NCBI GenBank assembly: GCA_003235365.1
Contig: QJWJ01000030.1
Coordinates: 1-64,000 of the forward strand
Source of the DNA: Deltaproteobacteria bacterium
Lineage (GTDB): Bacteria > Myxococcota_A > Polyangia > Polyangiales > Polyangiaceae
Length of the DNA: 64,000 bases
Reading direction: 5' to 3'
The notes under the pieces are model-generated. The model made no database searches and was not told the DNA's origin. It saw only the letters and a program-made list of their open reading frames with translations. Positions 29,671-62,848 of the stretch are shown here, one piece after another (the first letter of the stretch is position 1; the number at the start of each line of letters is the position of its first letter). Made by a program: the position numbers and the translations under genes.

Positions 29671-31041
29671 TCACTCTTCGGCGGCTGCGCCGTTGAGGAT
29701 CCATGTCTCGATGTCTGCTAGGGCACCTTCGGGCAGAAGTCGCGGCTTGAACTCCGCGTCGAGCGGCATACCCAGCCCCACCATGGTGTCGAGCTGGTTC
29801 ATTTTCACCCAAAGGTAGCTGTTTGCAGGATCACCGGGGGTCACCAACGGCATGTCCGGCGCCTGGGTGGACTTCTCGAGCAAGCGCTCGTACGAGCCCT
29901 CGGTGATGACGTCGAATCCGAACTCCGGTGACTCGCTGCCGTGACACCCTTGGCAGTTGGCTACGAGCAGCGGCTGGATGCGTCCCAACCACGTCGCTCC
30001 CTTGCCCAGTAGGTTGAGTCCTTCCGGATCCGCAGACCAGCTGCAGTCGGCGTAGTTGATCGGACTCGTCAAGTCGTACACCTCATCGATCTTGTCGGGT
30101 AGCCCTTCGACCAAACAGTACAACGCGAGCATGTCCGAAATGGACAAAGGCGTGTTTGCCAGTGGCATGCGTGTGCCGGGGATCGACAGGCCGCGCAGTT
30201 CTCCCCGCAGCCGACCTATCAAGTAGCTGCGTTCCGGATCACCGCCCTGTAACATGGCCAGCGGAGTGGCCTCGCGCGCGCCGTAGACTCCGTTGCGGTT
30301 CATGTCGCCCTGGCCCACGCCCGAATCGATGAGAGACGCCACCCGGTCGACCTGCCATTCACGCACTTCGCCGACGAGGTGTTTGCCGCCCTCGAGCACG
30401 AACCACTCGGTTTCGTAGCGGGCGTAACTCACTTCTTCGACCTCTCCGCCGTCGATGACGTTGAGTTTGAAGCTAGCCGTGCCCCAGGTGTGGGTGCGGC
30501 CGTCCCCGATGTTGATCGGTGATTGCAGCTCGATGTGAAGGCCGGGCGAGTCCAGTTCTGGCCGCTTGTCGTCGTTGTAGTCTTCGTCGCCGATGATGTA
30601 GTCGACCCAGCCGATTTCGACTTCTTTCGATCCGCCGAGGGTGATTCGATCGCCGGGGCGTTCGCACCCATCGAAGACGGCTGACCAGTCGCCGGGCTGA
30701 ACGTTGCACGGCGCGTTGATCGCGGCCAGCAGGTTCGAAGGCGTGTGGAGATCGGGATACTCTTTCTGGTTGTGACACACGCCCCCAGTGGGGCCGCACG
30801 TTCGAACGATGACGTTGCGGTGAAGATCCAAACCAGTGCGGTGCGTCGCCTGCGCCTCGAGCACGAATTCGTTGTCGCCGGTGTAGCGCGGCGCTTCCAC
30901 CGCTTGCATCAGCGTCGGGCGCTCGTTGTCGAAGTTGATCTTACCGGTGGGGCCGTACTCCGACGCGTCTTGCCCGCAGGCCACGAAACACGTGCAAATG
31001 GCACCGACCAAGGGCGTGGTGAGCGTGCTGACTGCCCTCAT
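29671..31041 (-). CDS. Heme-binding lipoprotein, third gene of the DUF1549/DUF1501-like operon
   Basis: A 456-residue lipoprotein. The signal ends in FVAC with Cys22 lipidated. One canonical heme site is at C363-Q-G-C366-H367 with Met in VGLGMPLD as a possible distal ligand, so the C-terminal 110 residues are a cytochrome-c-like domain. An earlier C82-x6-C89-H90 may be a non-canonical heme site or a structural disulfide. The middle 250 residues are beta-rich and not recognised. ATG 31041 overlaps the stop of the DUF1501 gene by 4 bp, showing coupling. It is probably exported together with the two upstream products into one surface or periplasmic complex. Confidence 0.75.
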   Translation of the reverse strand: MRAVSTLTTPLVGAICTCFVACGQDASEYGPTGKINFDNERPTLMQAVEAPRYTGDNEFVLEAQATHRTGLDLHRNVIVRTCGPTGGVCHNQKEYPDLHTPSNLLAAINAPCNVQPGDWSAVFDGCERPGDRITLGGSKEVEIGWVDYIIGDEDYNDDKRPELDSPGLHIELQSPINIGDGRTHTWGTASFKLNVIDGGEVEEVSYARYETEWFVLEGGKHLVGEVREWQVDRVASLIDSGVGQGDMNRNGVYGAREATPLAMLQGGDPERSYLIGRLRGELRGLSIPGTRMPLANTPLSISDMLALYCLVEGLPDKIDEVYDLTSPINYADCSWSADPEGLNLLGKGATWLGRIQPLLVANCQGCHGSESPEFGFDVITEGSYERLLEKSTQAPDMPLVTPGDPANSYLWVKMNQLDTMVGLGMPLDAEFKPRLLPEGALADIETWILNGAAAEE

Positions 31042-32477
31042 CCGAACACTCCTGCGATGGGGTCGTCTTGGATGAAGAACTCCGAGTGATCGGCACACAG
31101 CAGATCCATCATCGTCTTTGCAACGGAGCGGTACGAGAACACTACACCGTCATCCTTCAGATCCGCCTTGGCGGTGACACCGAATTGCTTTCCTCCGATG
31201 CCAGCCTGCGTGATCAGGCCTCCCATGAACGGCATGCTCATCCAGCGCGTGGCGCGATCACCGCCGTGGTCGCTGCCACCCGCGGAGTTGAACCCGCTGC
31301 CGCGAGCGGTCCGTCCGAACTCACTGCCGAGGATCACCAGCGTGTGGTCCCAATAGGTCCCACCGGTGGGGTGCTCCATACGCTTGAGTGCTGCGTTCAG
31401 CGCGCTGAGCAAGCGGTTGAGACCGCTCATCGCATCTGCGAGCCGTTCGTCCTCGCCGGAGTGCATGTCGTAGCCGCCTTGATCGAGGTAGACGGCAGGG
31501 CAGCCAAAGTGAAAGAGGCGCAACGCCAGCTTGAGCTGATTCGCGGAGCCACCGTCACCGAACATCGTCGACAGTTGTCGGTTGCTGATTCCGTCGACTT
31601 GCTCGTCCGAGTTGTTGCGTACCTTCAGAACGTCGCTCGCGAAGATCTCGGAGAACTTGCGCGTCGACTCGCGCGTGCCCATGTAGGCCTCGACTAGCGA
31701 TCGAGACGGCACCATCTGCTTGGCGAGCATGTTGTTGTCCGCCTCGGAGGCCATCGCGTTCGCCCAGTCGGGAAGCGACGCGCTGGAAAAGACGAAGTTG
31801 TCGAAACTGTCGCCCTGGATCAGCGGGGGGCGGTAAGCTGCGTACTCACCCGCGCCGCGCGCCATACCCGCCGAGCCGAGCACGAACGGCGGCAGCTCGA
31901 TGCGCCCCTCGGCAGCGGCAGCCTCGATGCGCGCCCGCAAGCCGTAGTTGAGCATGGTGAAGATGCTGTTCTGGCCAGATACGGAGCCCGTGTTGAAGCG
32001 GTCGAGGCCGGTGCCGTGGTTGCCGTCGGCGTTGCCGGAGGTTGGCTCGTGATCGACCGTCGCCAGCACGGCCATCTCGTTGGTGAAGTCGGTAACCCGG
32101 CGCATACCGAGGTCGACTAGCGCTTGCCCGGCGTCACCGTCGAGCCAGTCCGAACCCTCGAGGAGTCGGCTGGCGCCCCATTCGGTACCGCTGGCGAGGT
32201 TGCGCGCCATGCCGAACGGGTTGAATTCCTGCGCGACGTTGCCGTTGAAAGCCGTCGTGAAGCGGAAGCCGCCACTCAATCGCATGTAGATGATGTGCTG
32301 GACGCTTCCCCGTGCGTCGCATTGTTGAGCGAACGTGGAGTTGGGGATCCAGATCAGGGGACCGGCGGCGGCACCGCCGATGATGCTCGACTGCAGGAGC
32401 TTGCGGCGCGTGAGTCGGTTCTTGGGTTTGCTTGCGGCTGGTTTCGATGAAGGAGGTCTGCGTCGATTCACTATCAC
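31038..32477 (-). CDS. DUF1501-family protein with Tat signal
   Basis: A protein of about 479 residues resembling the DUF1501 group. A twin-arginine export signal is clear: LTRRKLLQSSIIGGAAAG followed by a hydrophobic stretch and SNSTFAQ-like end, so it is exported folded, which suggests a bound cofactor or metal. The C-terminal half has LVILGSEFGRTA and GSDHGGDRATRW, the alkaline-phosphatase-like segment typical of DUF1501. The start is uncertain; GTG 32477 (or GTG 32471) is chosen because the longer frame would run into the upstream gene, whose stop is at 32498. It lies between a DUF1549-like lipoprotein and a heme lipoprotein in a three-gene operon. Confidence 0.75.
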   Translation of the reverse strand: MIVNRRRPPSSKPAASKPKNRLTRRKLLQSSIIGGAAAGPLIWIPNSTFAQQCDARGSVQHIIYMRLSGGFRFTTAFNGNVAQEFNPFGMARNLASGTEWGASRLLEGSDWLDGDAGQALVDLGMRRVTDFTNEMAVLATVDHEPTSGNADGNHGTGLDRFNTGSVSGQNSIFTMLNYGLRARIEAAAAEGRIELPPFVLGSAGMARGAGEYAAYRPPLIQGDSFDNFVFSSASLPDWANAMASEADNNMLAKQMVPSRSLVEAYMGTRESTRKFSEIFASDVLKVRNNSDEQVDGISNRQLSTMFGDGGSANQLKLALRLFHFGCPAVYLDQGGYDMHSGEDERLADAMSGLNRLLSALNAALKRMEHPTGGTYWDHTLVILGSEFGRTARGSGFNSAGGSDHGGDRATRWMSMPFMGGLITQAGIGGKQFGVTAKADLKDDGVVFSYRSVAKTMMDLLCADHSEFFIQDDPIAGVFG

Positions 32478-32497
32478 ACCGTGTGTCTTTGCTCGAG

Positions 32498-34321
32498 TCA
32501 GTAGAAAAGCATTTCGGCGCTGCTGAGCAGCGCGTAGCAGGCGGGGCGGGCGAACTCTTCGGCGCGGCAAACGCTTCGTGCGCAGCTCTCGCCGTGCGCT
32601 CGCGCTGCTTCGGTTTCTTTGCCGGTGGGCGAGCGCCCGAAGAAGTGCAGCATTTGGTAACGAACGATTTCCGCCGCACTATCGGCAGTGATCGACTCGT
32701 CGGCGCCGATCTCTTTGGGGAGCAACTGCTCGATGGAAGCGCGCTCACGACGTCCGTCCCCACCTTCCAGCGCAGGGTCACAGATGCGGGTTGCGAAGTT
32801 GAGTTGATTGGCCGTGGTCAACACACTGACGATCTTGAAGCGGCCACCCTGAGAGTTGTCGGGGCAACCGCCGAGGTTGCGAACCAGATCGCGATAGCGG
32901 GTGTCGATGCGCCCCTCGTCGTTGACCTGCCAGTCCGACTCCTGGAGCAGGGCGTACGCGCTCGGGCTGTCCGAATCGAGGAAGTCGCCAGGACGGTTGA
33001 TGCGCAGGTCACAGCGCCGCACGTCGCTGTCGGTCATCGCATTCAGCGAGTCGACCCAGCCCTCGGCGTCGATCTGCTTCAATGGGCCGTAGGTGTAGCG
33101 AAGTTTGGCATCGCGATCGCCCGTGCTGCTTTGCAGATAGGCGGCGCTCGTCAGGATCGCGTAGTGCAGTGAACGGATGTCGCCGTTGTTGTCGAGGGCG
33201 TAGCGGACCAGCTCCTCGCCGACCTGGGGAACCTGCGTCGCCAGATCGTAGCCGAGGTACTGATCGATGACGACGTTCGCTGCGTGCTCCCAGAACAGCC
33301 AATCTTGTGTGAGCAGTCGGCCTGGGGTTTGGAGCTTCTCCCATTCCGAGGCGGTGAGGAGGCCGCTCCACATGAGCCAACCGTCACGCTCCTTGCGCGC
33401 TCGAGAGTCGGGTTCGAGAATGATGGTCTCGACGTGTCCGAAGCGGACGCTCGTACACTCGCCGCTGCCCGCCGATTGGCGCCCCTCGTCGTCCACGCAC
33501 CGGTACCTGATGTAGGCGTCGGGCAAACGCATGCCGAGCTGCGGATGGTCGTAGTAGTTGTTATCCCACAAGGTGTACATTCGGCCCAAATCGCTACGCT
33601 CGTCGCCAAACGGCGGGCGGCCGAGCAGCACCCAAAACAGCGCCTCGGCTCGGTCGCCTCGGGTTGCGTGACGCCGCGTCAGAATCGGGTGGGCGCTGAG
33701 CACGGCGGCAAATTCGTCATAAGCGATGCGACCCTCGTAGAGCGCTTCGACGACTCGGTCCATGTCGTAGATCCGTTCGACGCTGACTGACTCGGTGTCG
33801 TAGCCGAGGCGGTCGGCCCAGTGCCGACGATTGAGCCGCACGAAGGCTTCGGTCGACAGCAGGTCCTTGACGACTTCACCCCAAGGTCGATCGAGACACT
33901 GGTCCTTCATTTCGCTGCGGGTCGGGAAGCGCCCCTGGGTGTCGACCCACAAACGGCGGCAGGCTTCTTCGGCTACGATGGGGGTGCCGCTGCCGCCCGG
34001 GCCCCACAGGCCGGTGCACAGCCCCTTGTTCACCGGGTTGGTGAGATTCAACGACTCACAACGGGCGAGGCAGTCCTCGCCGCAAGTGATCGGCGGCTCT
34101 GCATCCCAGGTCGACGCTTCGTCGACCGGAACCTGATCATTGCCACCAGCAAAGTTGCCGTCGGTGATCGGGTCGCCGTTGGATAGCAGTTCCGAGGGGC
34201 CACGTTCTGGGTGCTCGACGTCGAACAGCTTCTTTTCGTCGGAACACCCAGAGGCGAGTAGACCCCAGCAAGTCAAGACGGCCGGGAGTGCGTTGAGTAA
34301 AGTCCTCGATGAGCGCTTCAT
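32498..34321 (-). CDS. DUF1549/DUF1553-like lipoprotein
   Basis: A 607-residue lipoprotein with signal ending in LLASGC. The region with RRLWVDTQGRFPTRSEM and LSTEAFVRLNRRHWADRLGY resembles the DUF1549 pattern (RRlyLDltGl.Pt.eE, then LL.s..yg.rw.rhWlDlary) known from planctomycetes and other bacteria, where such genes are paired with DUF1501 genes exactly as here. No CXXCH is present, so it is not itself a cytochrome. It is the first gene of the operon. A TAGACT hexamer lies about 15 nt before the ATG (34335-34340 on the minus strand) as a possible -10 element. Confidence 0.65.
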   Translation of the reverse strand: MKRSSRTLLNALPAVLTCWGLLASGCSDEKKLFDVEHPERGPSELLSNGDPITDGNFAGGNDQVPVDEASTWDAEPPITCGEDCLARCESLNLTNPVNKGLCTGLWGPGGSGTPIVAEEACRRLWVDTQGRFPTRSEMKDQCLDRPWGEVVKDLLSTEAFVRLNRRHWADRLGYDTESVSVERIYDMDRVVEALYEGRIAYDEFAAVLSAHPILTRRHATRGDRAEALFWVLLGRPPFGDERSDLGRMYTLWDNNYYDHPQLGMRLPDAYIRYRCVDDEGRQSAGSGECTSVRFGHVETIILEPDSRARKERDGWLMWSGLLTASEWEKLQTPGRLLTQDWLFWEHAANVVIDQYLGYDLATQVPQVGEELVRYALDNNGDIRSLHYAILTSAAYLQSSTGDRDAKLRYTYGPLKQIDAEGWVDSLNAMTDSDVRRCDLRINRPGDFLDSDSPSAYALLQESDWQVNDEGRIDTRYRDLVRNLGGCPDNSQGGRFKIVSVLTTANQLNFATRICDPALEGGDGRRERASIEQLLPKEIGADESITADSAAEIVRYQMLHFFGRSPTGKETEAARAHGESCARSVCRAEEFARPACYALLSSAEMLFY

Positions 34322-35444: not shown

Positions 35445-36974
35445 ATGGCCCAGCTGGACAAGTTCATCGCGGCGATGCTGACGCGCTCAGCGAGCGAATT
35501 GGTGCTCGCTCCCGAGGCAGAGCCCACGCTCATCGTCAACGGCAAACCCGCCTCACTGACGTCGCGTAAGCCCAACGTCAGCCAGATCCGGCGACTGATC
35601 GCCGAGATTGCGCCCAAGGAGGTACGCGTCGCGTTCACTACTGACGGTGGAGGCACGTTCGAGTACCGAGTCGGTAACTTGGACCCGGTGTCCATGACCG
35701 TCAGCGATTGGGCAGGAGAAACGGAGCTGCGCATTCGGCCCTTGGCGGCGCTGCGAGCCGACGATGCGATTGCTTTGGAAACCGACGACATGTTGGTTCA
35801 CGACGGTCCGATCGGCGCGTTGGATGCACCACCTCCCGCGCCGCCCGTTCGCGATCTGGGCGGGAGCAAGATCGCTGGCGGTAGTGCGGGATCGCCGCCC
35901 ATCGACGAGCTGTTTCGAGTCCTCGTCAAGACCGGTTCGTCCGATCTGCACATGAGCTCCGAAGAGATCCCGATGATCCGCAAAGACGGCGAAATGGTGC
36001 GGGTCGACTACCGAAGGTTGAACCCCGAGGCTCTGTGGGAGTTGCTCCTGCCGATCATTCCGCAGAGCAATCGCGAGCAGTTCGATGCGGAGGGGGACAC
36101 GGATTTTGCCTACGAGATCAAGGGTTTGGCTCGCTTTCGCGCGAACCTGTTTCGGGATCGCAAAGGGGTCGGTGCCGTATTCCGAACGATTCCGGCAGAC
36201 ATACTCACGACCGAGCAATTGGGCCTCTCCCAAGCCATCTGCGACTTGACGAAGCTCACCAAGGGATTGGTGCTGGTTACTGGTCCCACGGGTAGCGGCA
36301 AGTCGACGACGCTGTGTGCGCTCGTCGACCTCATCAATCGCACTCGCTCGGATCACATCATTACGATCGAGGATCCAATCGAGTTCGTTCACGAGAACAA
36401 GAAGTGCTTGGTGAACCAGCGAGAGGTAGGTGTTCATACCCAGGGATTCAAACGGGCGCTGCGCGCGGCGCTGCGTGAGGACCCAGACATCGTGCTAGTG
36501 GGGGAAATGCGCGATCTCGAAACCATCGCCATCGCCATCGAGACGGCGGAGACCGGCCACCTCGTATTCGGCACGCTCCACACCAGCACCGCCTATTCGA
36601 CGATCGACCGCATCATCGACCAGTTTCCGCCCGACCAGCAGGAGCAGATCCGCGTGATGCTCAGCGAATCACTGCGAGGGGTGATCAGTCAGACCCTGTG
36701 CAAGAAGATTGGTGGCGGACGAGTTGCGGCTCTCGAAGTGCTACTGTCGAATCCTGCAGTGGCCAACCTGATTCGCGAGGGCAAGACCTTTCAGATCCCC
36801 TCGATCATGCAAACCAATCGCGGCAGGGGCATGGTTCTGCTCAACGAGGCACTCCTCGAACTGGTGCAGAAACAGAAGATCACGGCTGACGAAGCGATCC
36901 TCAAAGCCGTGGACAAGCCGACTCTCAAAGGGATGCTCAAGAACGCCAACATCCCGCTTCCCGAAGGCGCGTGA
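35445..36974 (+). CDS. pilT: Type IV pilus retraction ATPase PilT with duplicated N-terminal domain
   Basis: A 509-residue hexameric secretion ATPase. The C-terminal about 355 residues are a full PilT: Walker A GPTGSGKST at 280-288, Asp-box EDPIEFVHEN, Walker B DPDIVLVGEMRD, and His-box GHLVFGTLHT. PilT proteins are normally about 345-370 residues; here residues 1-115 look like an extra, diverged copy of the PAS-like N-domain. LDKFIAAMLTRSASELVL aligns with IDELFRVLVKTGSSDLHM at 153-170, and later pieces keep the same order. A Pro/Gly-rich linker (about 120-150) joins the copies. No other pilus genes are in the window. Confidence 0.85.
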   Translation: MAQLDKFIAAMLTRSASELVLAPEAEPTLIVNGKPASLTSRKPNVSQIRRLIAEIAPKEVRVAFTTDGGGTFEYRVGNLDPVSMTVSDWAGETELRIRPLAALRADDAIALETDDMLVHDGPIGALDAPPPAPPVRDLGGSKIAGGSAGSPPIDELFRVLVKTGSSDLHMSSEEIPMIRKDGEMVRVDYRRLNPEALWELLLPIIPQSNREQFDAEGDTDFAYEIKGLARFRANLFRDRKGVGAVFRTIPADILTTEQLGLSQAICDLTKLTKGLVLVTGPTGSGKSTTLCALVDLINRTRSDHIITIEDPIEFVHENKKCLVNQREVGVHTQGFKRALRAALREDPDIVLVGEMRDLETIAIAIETAETGHLVFGTLHTSTAYSTIDRIIDQFPPDQQEQIRVMLSESLRGVISQTLCKKIGGGRVAALEVLLSNPAVANLIREGKTFQIPSIMQTNRGRGMVLLNEALLELVQKQKITADEAILKAVDKPTLKGMLKNANIPLPEGA

Positions 36975-37155
36975 GACGGGTGCGCAGCGGCACGGGGCAC
37001 GGGGCCAAGCCCGTCACGGCCCGTCGCGGTTCGCGTGATTGGGCGACCGGGGAGAGCGGCTCGTGATTGGGGAAGCAGTGTATCGGTCGCCGATTCGGTG
37101 TTTTCCGATCGGCTCTTAATCGATGGCGGCGCTTGTGCGTAATCGGGGGGGACCG

Positions 37156-38208
37156 ATGCCGATTGACCACGCAGGTTCTGCCAACTTCGAGTCGGGGCGG
37201 GCGACGTCAGAGTCCGGCGTGGGGCCGCGCGTGGGCGAGGAGGTAATTCCCGACCCGGCCGATTTGGTCGAGCTGATCTTCTGTCCCTTCGAGCGTGAGT
37301 CGGCATGCCTACCTGAAGAGATCATCGACGGTGCAGAACAGTGGTGTCGGGACCAGCTCGGCGAGAGCACTGGCGTGTTCACGGTTTCGCAGACCGCAGT
37401 GCTCGCCGCGGACTGCTGCCCGGATGCCGGGCCGCAGCAGCTCGCGCTGGCTGTCGACTATTTGCAGTGGGGCTATGCATTGGAACGACGCGTCGAAGCT
37501 TCGCGCAGCCTCGATGCTCCCGAGGACGTTGCGCAGTTGCTCCGACGCCTCGACGGGATCCTCCGCGGTAACCCGCCGTCGCGCGACTCGGAGCCGATTG
37601 AGGTTTCACTTCACGACGTGCTCAAGCGCTATGCGCGGTTTGCGTCGAGGGAGGAGGTGCGAACCTTCGCCGTGGGTAACCGCCGTCGCTTCGACGCTCT
37701 GCTCTGGGAGGCCGCGAATCGGTCGTTTGGCTGGCTCCCGGACGAACTGACTTACACCAACCTGGCGCCCAATCGAAGTCCCCTGTCGGTCCTGACCTAT
37801 GCATTGGGCCCGATGAACCTCGTGCGGTTGTCGGACCGCGCGATGGCGGACGTGCGCGTTCGCACGTGCCGGTGGCTCGCGCGACGTATCGGTTGCTGGG
37901 TGGGCGACCTGCTCACGATCGACGGCCAACGGGCGCGTCGCGGCGGGCACAACCTGGTGTGGATCCGCGCCAACCGGCGCGGTACCGGCATCGCGGAAGC
38001 CGTTCATGGCAGTGTCGAGTTCTGCAATCGCGAGATTGAGGAGTTCTGCGCGCGCAGCGCGCAGCTGCAAACAGCCCATGCGAGCCAACGTGAGATCGTC
38101 ACGTACGCGCGCCGGCTCAGTGGCGCCATCGTCGGGGCCATTCAGTTTGGAGCCGAAGCCGGCTCAGGCGCACCCCGGGCAGCAGCAACGATCGACGCAG
38201 GTCAGTGA
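37156..38208 (+). CDS. Terpene-synthase-like protein lacking both metal-binding motifs
   Basis: Numbering here is from Met at 37123, the longer start. Residues 99-125 (CCPDAGPQQLALAVDYLQW and on to ERRVEA) match the bacterial terpene synthase pattern yPdas.e.L.l.adw..WlF.lDD..De, but the Asp-rich motif is replaced by ERRVE. Near 259-279 the NSE motif position reads GDLLTIDGQ followed by HNLV: the Asn, Ser and Glu ligands are Gly, Thr and Gln. The rest of the helical fold (DALLWEAANRSFGWLPD, EAVHGSVEFCNREIEEF) is preserved. Without Mg2+ ligands it should not ionise a diphosphate in the normal way. Met12 at 37156 is chosen because GGGGGG precedes it. Confidence 0.55.
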   Translation: MPIDHAGSANFESGRATSESGVGPRVGEEVIPDPADLVELIFCPFERESACLPEEIIDGAEQWCRDQLGESTGVFTVSQTAVLAADCCPDAGPQQLALAVDYLQWGYALERRVEASRSLDAPEDVAQLLRRLDGILRGNPPSRDSEPIEVSLHDVLKRYARFASREEVRTFAVGNRRRFDALLWEAANRSFGWLPDELTYTNLAPNRSPLSVLTYALGPMNLVRLSDRAMADVRVRTCRWLARRIGCWVGDLLTIDGQRARRGGHNLVWIRANRRGTGIAEAVHGSVEFCNREIEEFCARSAQLQTAHASQREIVTYARRLSGAIVGAIQFGAEAGSGAPRAAATIDAGQ

Positions 38209-38332: not shown

Positions 38333-39541
38333 ATGCTCACACGTCGTTTTGGTCGCACGGAACTCGCGATGCCCGTCTTCAGCTGCGGCGGGATGCGTTA
38401 TCAGTTCAAGTGGCAAGATCGACCGCTCAGCGACGTTCCGCCTGCCAATCAGGCGAATCTCGAAGCGACCGTGAACCGCGCACTGCAATTGGGGATCAAT
38501 CACATCGAGACGGCGCGCGGCTACGGGAGCAGCGAGCGGCAGTTGGGTCAGGTCCTGCCTCGCTTCGAACGGGAGTCGTTGATCGTGCAGACGAAGCTTT
38601 CGCCCAACGATGACCCTCGCCAGTTCGAGTCCGAGTTCCACGAGTCACTCGCCCGACTGCAGCTCGATTACGTCGATCTGTTGGCGATTCACGGCATCAA
38701 CGACCGCACGACGCTGGACTGGTCGACTCGAGACGGCGGTTGCTTCGAGGTCGCCCAGCGTCTGCGTGAACAGGGCAAGGTGCGTTTCGTCGGTTTCTCG
38801 AGTCACGCGAGTCTGGACGTCTTGCTCGACGCGGTCGGATTTGGACGCCCGGAGGTCGGGCAGGGCTTCGACTACGTCAATCTGCATTGGTACTACATCT
38901 TTCAACACAACTGGCCGGCCATCGAGCTCGCCGCTCGGCGTGACATGGGCGTGTTCATCATTTCCCCAACCGACAAGGGGGGGCGGCTGCACTCTCCGCC
39001 CACGCAGCTCGAGGCGCTGTGCGCCCCGTTGTCGCCCATGGTGTTCAACGACTTGTTCTGCCTGTCGCACCCCGAAGTTCACACACTGAGCATCGGCGCG
39101 GCTCGACCGGGCGATTTCGACGAGCACCTGAAGACGCTGCCGTTGCTGGCAGGGGCCCACGAGCAGCTATCGCCCCTCGTCGCGCGGCTGGAGGCTGCCA
39201 TGCAGCGAGCGACCGGGCGCCTGCGGCCCGAAGTGTTCGATCTGGGGTTGCCGAGTTGGGAGCACGTTCCTGAAAACTACAACTTGGAAACCATCTGGTG
39301 GCTGTTGAACCTGGCCAAGGGGTGGGGCCTGTTGGACTTCGCCAAGTGGCGGTTTGGCTTGCTCGACAACGCCGGATACTGGTTTGCGGGGAACCGTCCC
39401 CGTTCGCCGAAACAGGTCGACGACAGCCAGCTGTTCGAAGCGCTGCGCGGCCACCCAGCGCGTGATGACGTGCTCACCATGCTTCGTGAAGCGGTTCTGC
39501 TGTTCGGGAATCACGACCAGCGGCGGCTCAGTCAGAGTTGA
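38333..39541 (+). CDS. Aldo/keto reductase with C-terminal extension
   Basis: A 402-residue aldo/keto reductase. The AKR barrel covers about residues 1-285: RRFGRTELAMPVFSCGG, IETARGYGSSERQLGQVL with catalytic Tyr, IVQTKLSP with Lys, and LLAIHGIN with His. The usual first Asp is again Glu (ETA). The remaining about 115 residues form an extension with VPENYNLETIWWLLNLAKG and FAKWRFGLL; AKRs of the COG1453 type carry a ferredoxin-like Cys-rich tail here, but this tail has no cysteines. It is preceded by the short dispersed repeat and an apparent leaderless start. Substrate unknown. Confidence 0.85.
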   Translation: MLTRRFGRTELAMPVFSCGGMRYQFKWQDRPLSDVPPANQANLEATVNRALQLGINHIETARGYGSSERQLGQVLPRFERESLIVQTKLSPNDDPRQFESEFHESLARLQLDYVDLLAIHGINDRTTLDWSTRDGGCFEVAQRLREQGKVRFVGFSSHASLDVLLDAVGFGRPEVGQGFDYVNLHWYYIFQHNWPAIELAARRDMGVFIISPTDKGGRLHSPPTQLEALCAPLSPMVFNDLFCLSHPEVHTLSIGAARPGDFDEHLKTLPLLAGAHEQLSPLVARLEAAMQRATGRLRPEVFDLGLPSWEHVPENYNLETIWWLLNLAKGWGLLDFAKWRFGLLDNAGYWFAGNRPRSPKQVDDSQLFEALRGHPARDDVLTMLREAVLLFGNHDQRRLSQS

Positions 39542-61756: not shown

Positions 61757-62848
61757 ATGGGTATTGGGGAACACCTGGGGGAAGCCCGATTTCGCGCGGC
61801 GGATCAACCGTCGTCCGGTGCACCGCTGAGTGCAGGGAGCGGCGGGCGAGCCGGTCACGATTCGTCACGGCGTCGCGGCGCTGGTTCTGCTGGCGTGAGG
61901 CGTTCGAGGCGCGGGTCCGTCGCCCTCGAAGGCATCGTTCGAAGTGGTCTCGTCCAGGTTGGGGGGGAAAAGGGGTTGGCGCTGCTCACCGTTCGAGGTG
62001 AGGTCCCGCCGGTTCGCGGCGATGCCGGGGCGCTGCGGCGAGTGATCTCGGCGTTGCTGAGCGTCGGTATCGGGCAGCGACCCGACGAGGTCGACGCCAC
62101 GATCGAGCTGCGTGAGGTGTCCGTGCTTCCGGACGACGCCGTGGAGCCGTTCGTGGGGCGCAGGCCGGTCGCTGAAACGTGCGTGGTGCTGTCCGTCCCC
62201 GCGCCCTCGGGCCAATCGGATGCGGCGCGGCTGCGGGCACTGCTTGACAGTTCCCGAGCGGCCTATTTGCTGCGCAGCCCGCGGTTCGACCCGGCGGACG
62301 AAACGGCTCTTTCCGAGTGTCTGGCAATAGTGCATCGACAGGGTGGCGGTTTGAGGGTAGTCCGTCCTTCGGGCACGGGCCTTTGGTTTGAGGTGTACTT
62401 CCCGGTGGCGGACGAAGGAACAGACGAAACGTCGACAGGAGGGGATCCTGACTTCGTCCAAGGCGTGACGTTCCGAGGGCACGGGCGAGTGCTCGTGATC
62501 GATGATGAACCGTCGGTGGCGCGTCTGACCGGTTTGGTGTTGGATCAGCACGGCTTCGAGGTCGAAGTTGCGGGCAGCGGCAGCGAAGCGCTGTCGCTCA
62601 TCCAGCGACATCCGGAAGGGTTTCGCTTGGTCATCGTCGACCTTTCGATGCCTGATCTGTCCGGGGTCGAAGTATTGCTGCGCGCTCGCGAACTCGGTTG
62701 TTCCGCGCCGATGGTGCTCACCTCGGGGTATTCGCGCAACGAGGCGGTGCAGGAAGCGGGCAACGCGGATTTCGCGGGCTACTTGCAGAAGCCCTATCGT
62801 CTCGAAGCGCTGCTCGACGTCATCCAAGCTGCGTTGACCGACGGCTGA
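61757..62848 (+). CDS. Response-regulator protein with a degenerate HATPase-like N-domain
   Basis: A 363-residue two-part protein. The C-terminal receiver (about 235-360) is intact: acidic pair in VIDDEPS, phosphoacceptor Asp in VIVDLSMPDLSG, Thr/Ser in LTSGYS and Lys in YLQKPY. The N-terminal part (about 60-220) follows the order of a histidine-kinase ATPase domain (GALRRVISALL at the N-box position, ECLAIVHRQGGGLRV and GTGLWFEVYFP at the end) but the N-box Asn, the DxGxG and the glycine-rich lid are lost, and no H-box precedes it. It cannot bind ATP in the usual way. It is probably a phosphorylation-controlled output or scaffold protein. Confidence 0.65.
   Translation: MGIGEHLGEARFRAADQPSSGAPLSAGSGGRAGHDSSRRRGAGSAGVRRSRRGSVALEGIVRSGLVQVGGEKGLALLTVRGEVPPVRGDAGALRRVISALLSVGIGQRPDEVDATIELREVSVLPDDAVEPFVGRRPVAETCVVLSVPAPSGQSDAARLRALLDSSRAAYLLRSPRFDPADETALSECLAIVHRQGGGLRVVRPSGTGLWFEVYFPVADEGTDETSTGGDPDFVQGVTFRGHGRVLVIDDEPSVARLTGLVLDQHGFEVEVAGSGSEALSLIQRHPEGFRLVIVDLSMPDLSGVEVLLRARELGCSAPMVLTSGYSRNEAVQEAGNADFAGYLQKPYRLEALLDVIQAALTDG

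Follow-up and report, generated by a model that had tools for sequence, protein, structure and literature searches.

What does a protein do that has the predicted fold of a class I terpene synthase and none of its seven near-invariant active-site residues? The question is raised by a gene in the 64-kb window, the whole stretch of DNA analysed here, that is a single unbroken open reading frame of 350 codons. An ATG at 37123 in the same frame is a second candidate start for this terpene synthase homologue, and a possible ribosome-binding stretch upstream of position 37156 would favour the shorter form (Table 1).

Table 1. Coordinates of the gene, its active-site positions and its immediate neighbours in the window.
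Feature	Position	Strand	Basis and remarks
350-aa protein of terpene synthase fold lacking the class I active site	37156..38208	+	translation, PF19086, AlphaFold2, Foldseek
GGGGGGGA, possible ribosome-binding stretch favouring ATG 37156	37145..37152	+	sequence, inference
ERRVE, residues 110-114, at Asp-rich motif position, end of helix 93-115	37483..37497	+	alignments, model
Ala204 at pyrophosphate-sensor Arg position (Arg in 27/27 homologues)	37765..37767	+	alignment A3
GDLLTIDGQ, residues 250-258, at NSE motif (N→G, S→T, K→G, E→Q)	37903..37929	+	alignments
Ser337-Gly338 at C-terminal Arg-Tyr pair position	38164..38169	+	alignment A3
PilT/PilU-family ATPase with N-terminal extension	35445..36974	+	TIGR01420 E=3.8e-138; functional link only putative
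Aldo/keto reductase	38333..39541	+	PF00248 E=5.9e-20; functional link only putative

Family assignment and predicted fold

The profile search for terpene synthase family 2 that an earlier note on this DNA had called for detects the family: the protein matches Pfam PF19086 (terpene synthase family 2, C-terminal metal binding) with E=2.6e-16 and 60.4 bits against a curated cut-off of 23.7. Several NCBIfam bacterial sesquiterpene synthase models match it weakly, and the best sequence match in the PDB is selinadiene synthase (4okm, E=3.8e-12). The NCBIfam models for family 2 encapsulin cargo terpene cyclases stay below cut-off, at 29.7 and 23.8 bits against 1200 and 400. The claim that the protein aligns with class I terpene synthases over its whole length holds as regards homology and is too broad as regards coverage: the similarity spans residues ~35-336 of 350, and residues 1-19 and the last seven (344-350) are modelled with a pLDDT below 50.

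Elsewhere the AlphaFold2 model, built from a 28-row alignment, is confident, with a mean pLDDT of 86.8, a pTM of 0.85 and 248 of the 350 residues at a pLDDT of at least 90. The input alignment consists mostly of catalytic relatives and can bias the model to their fold, a bias from which the profile match is free. All of the best 50 Foldseek matches listed against the PDB are class I terpene synthases; normalised to the length of the query, their TM-scores run from 0.71 to 0.78, and to that of the target from 0.74 to 0.93. Together with the structural invariants, codon usage and neutral simulation described below, the model and its matches argue that the surrounding fold is preserved, as had been proposed.

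Substitutions in the active site

Class I enzymes hold the substrate diphosphate by three Mg2+ ions on two motifs, together with basic residues and an effector triad, and the two metal motifs have been described as mutation-resistant and among the few sequence features conserved across class I terpene synthases (PMC10563020). The window protein lacks an intact Asp-rich (D/N)Dxx(D/E) motif, an intact NSE/DTE (N,D)Dxx(S,T)xxxE motif, the sensor Arg and the RY pair. The reading of ERRVE as the Asp-rich motif proved correct, for this segment aligns in register with the metal motif of the homologues. Against 4okm, ERRVE lies opposite the DD-type motif and GDLLTIDGQ opposite the NSE-type motif, with a single one-residue gap, which falls inside the Asp-rich stretch. 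A DDxxD in another register among the homologues had been named as evidence to the contrary, and we find their acidic motif in the same register (alignment A3). Within the window protein itself, DAPED (residues 120-124) was considered as a DDxxD in another register and rejected, as it lies past helix 93-115 and off the aligned position.

The NSE motif, which had been called erased, is where it was said to be and has lost its Asn and Glu; Asp251 and Thr254 of this region are still present. Positions 1 and 5 of the Asp-rich motif carry conservative Asp-to-Glu changes. As read from the sequence, then, the acidic character of the metal motifs is lowered, not abolished. The losses extend beyond the two motifs of the earlier note to the sensor Arg (R204A), the effector Gly (Ser208 in the window protein) and the C-terminal RY pair. 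The position of the last is slightly alignment-dependent, a neighbouring register placing R341-A342 there, and the Tyr is absent in both. The loss of these further diphosphate-binding residues adds weight to the earlier suggestion that the protein probably does not hold the Mg2+ cluster.

We compared the fate of active-site and structural positions in alignment A3, which sets the window protein beside 27 homologues; these come from whole genomes within its bacterial family, from GTDB contigs and from the order, class and phylum. Alignments after A1 omit L078. Conservation in at least 85% was the criterion for choosing columns; they were then divided into active-site and structural ones on the basis of what is well established for class I enzymes (summarised in PMC10563020), "structural" being assigned by elimination. 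Not one of the seven near-invariant active-site columns is kept (D110E, D111R, R204A, N250G, E258Q, R337S, Y338G), as against seven of nine equally conserved structural columns (W63, P89, P195, D251, N266, A282 and G327; Fisher p=0.0032). Canonical class I chemistry has very probably been lost: with substitutions at the Mg2+ ligands, at the pyrophosphate sensor and in the RY pair, ionisation of a prenyl diphosphate by the class I mechanism is very unlikely.

Relatives and genomic surroundings

A scan of GTDB contigs with the window protein alone as query found no relative; a second scan, with alignment A2, found 13, at 20-26% identity, and the four whose motifs were read are all of catalytic type. 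The nearest relatives found, L135 (G587), L132 (G486) and L091 (a Proteobacteria MAG), share 26-30% identity over most of the domain and, unlike the window protein, have the acidic motif, sensor Arg, NSE motif and RY pair all present. In L135 these read DDRTEA, NDIFTVDKE and RY, and it shares with the window protein a Thr in the NSE motif and the WVxD(I/L)xT context. In the family alignment, in which some rows are partial with these columns empty, the N250 column holds Asn or His in every other filled row, the E258 column Glu or Asp in every other filled row except L047, and the sensor column Arg in all others except two weak, partial matches (L055, L058).

A survey of homologues for the same substitutions, also proposed earlier, gave a negative answer as to the full set, which none carries, and turned up some partly eroded proteins. 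We also searched genomes of the family (108), the order (184), the class (318) and the phylum (379) and found no closer homologue with the same erasure. L077:1349-2269 and L074:1321-2244 (G058 and G130) have eroded Asp-rich motifs (VDERFC and IEERFT, with DE or EE for DD) and NSE motifs reading HDLLFVAKE and HDLLWVAKE (HD for ND, F or W for S). In contrast to the window protein they retain the sensor Arg and the RY pair, and the trees do not group them with it. L047:1345-2226 (G003:C357) reads FDALAGE and NDISCYPKV (DA for DD, C for S, V for E) and likewise differs from the window protein in retaining the sensor Arg. Given this partial erosion in L077/L074 and L047, metal-ligand loss probably arose more than once in the same bacterial family; loss of the whole set is, from the sequences of the relatives surveyed, confined to the window protein. 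Its branch is long, at 1.91 against a median of 1.05 in one tree (second longest of 28) and 2.61 against 0.91 in a second (longest), and no supported group contains it in either. As a separate observation, L047 is convergent with ORFs that by eye read as CheB and CheR-TPR.

Terpene synthase domains occur within chemosensory gene clusters in two related genomes. In G040 (L085:8622-17064, G040:C135) a 498-aa protein fuses a CheW domain to a terpene synthase domain (PF01584 2.3e-21, PF19086 3.8e-25) and is encoded with CheA on one side and an MCP on the other; another CheW and a CheR are close by. The related cluster of G046 (L088:1229-4998, G046:C432) keeps this order, CheA, CheW, terpene synthase, MCP, with the synthase in a frame of its own; its CheA is 57% and its MCP 69% identical to those of G040. 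NSE-type residues are present in both synthase domains, the L088 synthase having NDLEPG as its Asp-rich motif and NDIMSIRRD as its NSE motif. Neither is close to the window protein: identity is 26.6% over 222 residues, at an E-value of about 0.004. The limited literature searched yielded no report of a CheW-terpene synthase combination in a chemosensory operon. The G040 cluster also encodes a protein of ~370 aa without a Pfam match (L085:14074-15180) that, judged by eye, may resemble an alpha/alpha-toroid; similar sequence adjoins terpene synthases in four other genomes (L170, L154, L155, L162). These two clusters hint that the terpene synthase fold can be recruited into signalling in this bacterial family, but they are not direct evidence on the window protein itself: in the 64-kb window and the contig sequence that follows, the only chemosensory gene match is to a response regulator (62486-62791).

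The gene itself sits between the PilT/PilU-family ATPase and the aldo/keto reductase, all three on the plus strand. Other neighbours scanned encode an FGGY kinase, a macro domain, an aldose epimerase, an NAD-dependent epimerase, glycogen synthase and a phospholipase-D-like protein. Among the neighbouring ORFs scanned, a part of those in the window, we recognised no gene for a prenyltransferase or a P450 and no other member of a terpene cluster. In a group of large ORFs on the minus strand (29671-34321), the one scanned has weak DUF1549/DUF1553 (PSCyt2/PSD1) matches, and two more lie beside it. The window protein is the only PF19086 match in its own genome and a profile search with PF03936 gave no match there, so a catalytic paralogue was not found in the genome. 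Six polyprenyl synthase matches lie on contigs other than that of the window gene; two of them (L150 and L151; G000:C236 and G000:C3) are weak (~50 bits) beside four strong ones and are possibly divergent or eroded copies. The one congener genome examined has no counterpart of the window protein. Its pilT orthologue (75% DNA identity) is not adjoined by a terpene synthase gene; ~4 kb from it lies a weak, partial aldo/keto reductase-like match on the opposite strand, and another terpene synthase, motif-complete (L017), is encoded elsewhere.

A probably maintained gene and its possible roles

The GC content of the window gene by codon position (0.697/0.520/0.760) has the host pattern, and its codon adaptation of 0.68 falls within the 0.645-0.731 of 12 neighbouring genes, compared with 0.514±0.022 for random synonymous versions. 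We also simulated neutral change under a simple model in 300 runs, each continued until all seven active-site residues had changed. In none of the 300 was the frame still open (median 9 stops) and in none were the seven structural invariants retained. The simulation argues against neutral decay over a long time; a short neutral phase following adaptive loss would be compatible with it. Since residue loss is selective, codon usage host-like and no neutral run left an open frame, we consider it quite probable that the gene is maintained and functional.

The window protein is best explained as a maintained pseudoenzyme whose ancestor was a bacterial class I terpene synthase, a reading to which we assign a probability of roughly 0.7. 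In its favour are the selective loss of active-site residues, the confidently predicted fold, the host-like codon usage, the outcome of the neutral runs and the long branch; no catalytic paralogue turned up in the genome, nor any terpene-cluster gene among the neighbours scanned. Such a protein would retain the all-helical terpenoid-synthase fold with its catalytic contacts substituted and would act by binding, in a regulatory or carrier role: an isoprenoid or another lipophilic molecule could sit in its hydrophobic cavity, or a protein partner could bind to its surface. Ligand binding specifically is a tentative assignment, with odds somewhat short of even. Counting against the pseudoenzyme reading are E110, E114, D251 and T254, which could in principle hold a weakened metal site, and the absence of the gene from the congener and of an orthologue sharing the erasure.

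Those same absences, with the singleton status of the gene in its genome and its long branch, also speak for relaxed selection, under which a terpene synthase would have lost its function with its gene still unbroken, as in an early pseudogene. The selective pattern of loss, the host-like codons and the failure of all neutral runs to keep the frame open speak against this, and we regard it as unlikely. More doubtful is a non-catalytic subunit of an active isoprenoid enzyme, by analogy with the small subunit of plant GPP synthase. The six polyprenyl synthase matches could supply a partner; these, however, are members of a different family encoded on other contigs, and no catalytic terpene synthase partner was found in the genome.

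Slightly less likely still is changed chemistry, in which an enzyme without the trinuclear Mg2+ cluster would, for example, bind diphosphate through Arg111, Arg112 and Arg207, or would carry out acid-base or prenyl-transfer chemistry or act on a non-diphosphate substrate. New arginines near the cavity mouth (R111 and R207, replacing acids or small residues) and the intact fold and cavity helices of the AlphaFold2 model are consistent with such an enzyme, but the usual diphosphate contacts have gone with the sensor Arg and the RY pair, the protein has no class II acid motif (DxDD) and the literature searched held no precedent. Sequencing or assembly error corrupting the motifs is hardly credible: the genome is fragmented (546 contigs, 6% contamination), but the alignment is in frame on either side of each motif, which rules out a frameshift, the changes lie at separate places with no stop or shift, and the same contig bears the pilT gene with its counterpart in the congener.

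A maintained pseudoenzyme would have consequences for annotation and for the use of the fold. A profile match is usually read as an enzyme, and a fold kept with nearly every catalytic contact substituted warns against naming by profile only. If the protein does bind a ligand, the fold would have been put to a new use, and the parts needed for binding and those needed for catalysis would become directly testable. That the fold has been recast as a non-catalytic receptor for terpenoids or other lipophiles, or as a carrier of them, forming with the chemosensory domains a new class of small-molecule binding module, is a speculative and on balance improbable extension. We came across no bacterial terpene synthase pseudoenzyme in the limited open literature searched; the fold family is known, and what is new here is a likely pseudoenzyme within it.

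Two known systems invite comparison with the window protein. The plant GPP synthase small subunit is a regulatory, noncatalytic subunit of a catalytic partner and is without DDxxD (PMC7839719). It resembles the window protein in combining an isoprenoid-synthase fold with the absence of this motif, and differs from it in belonging to the trans-prenyltransferase family and in forming a heterotetramer with its catalytic partner. The PF19086 class I synthases (selinadiene synthase 4okm, T-muurolol synthase 9hqm and 10-epi-cubebol synthase 7zrn) are homologous to the window protein over the whole domain and share its helical fold, and it is in the metal motifs, the sensor, the effector Gly and the RY pair, all substituted in the window protein, that the two part.
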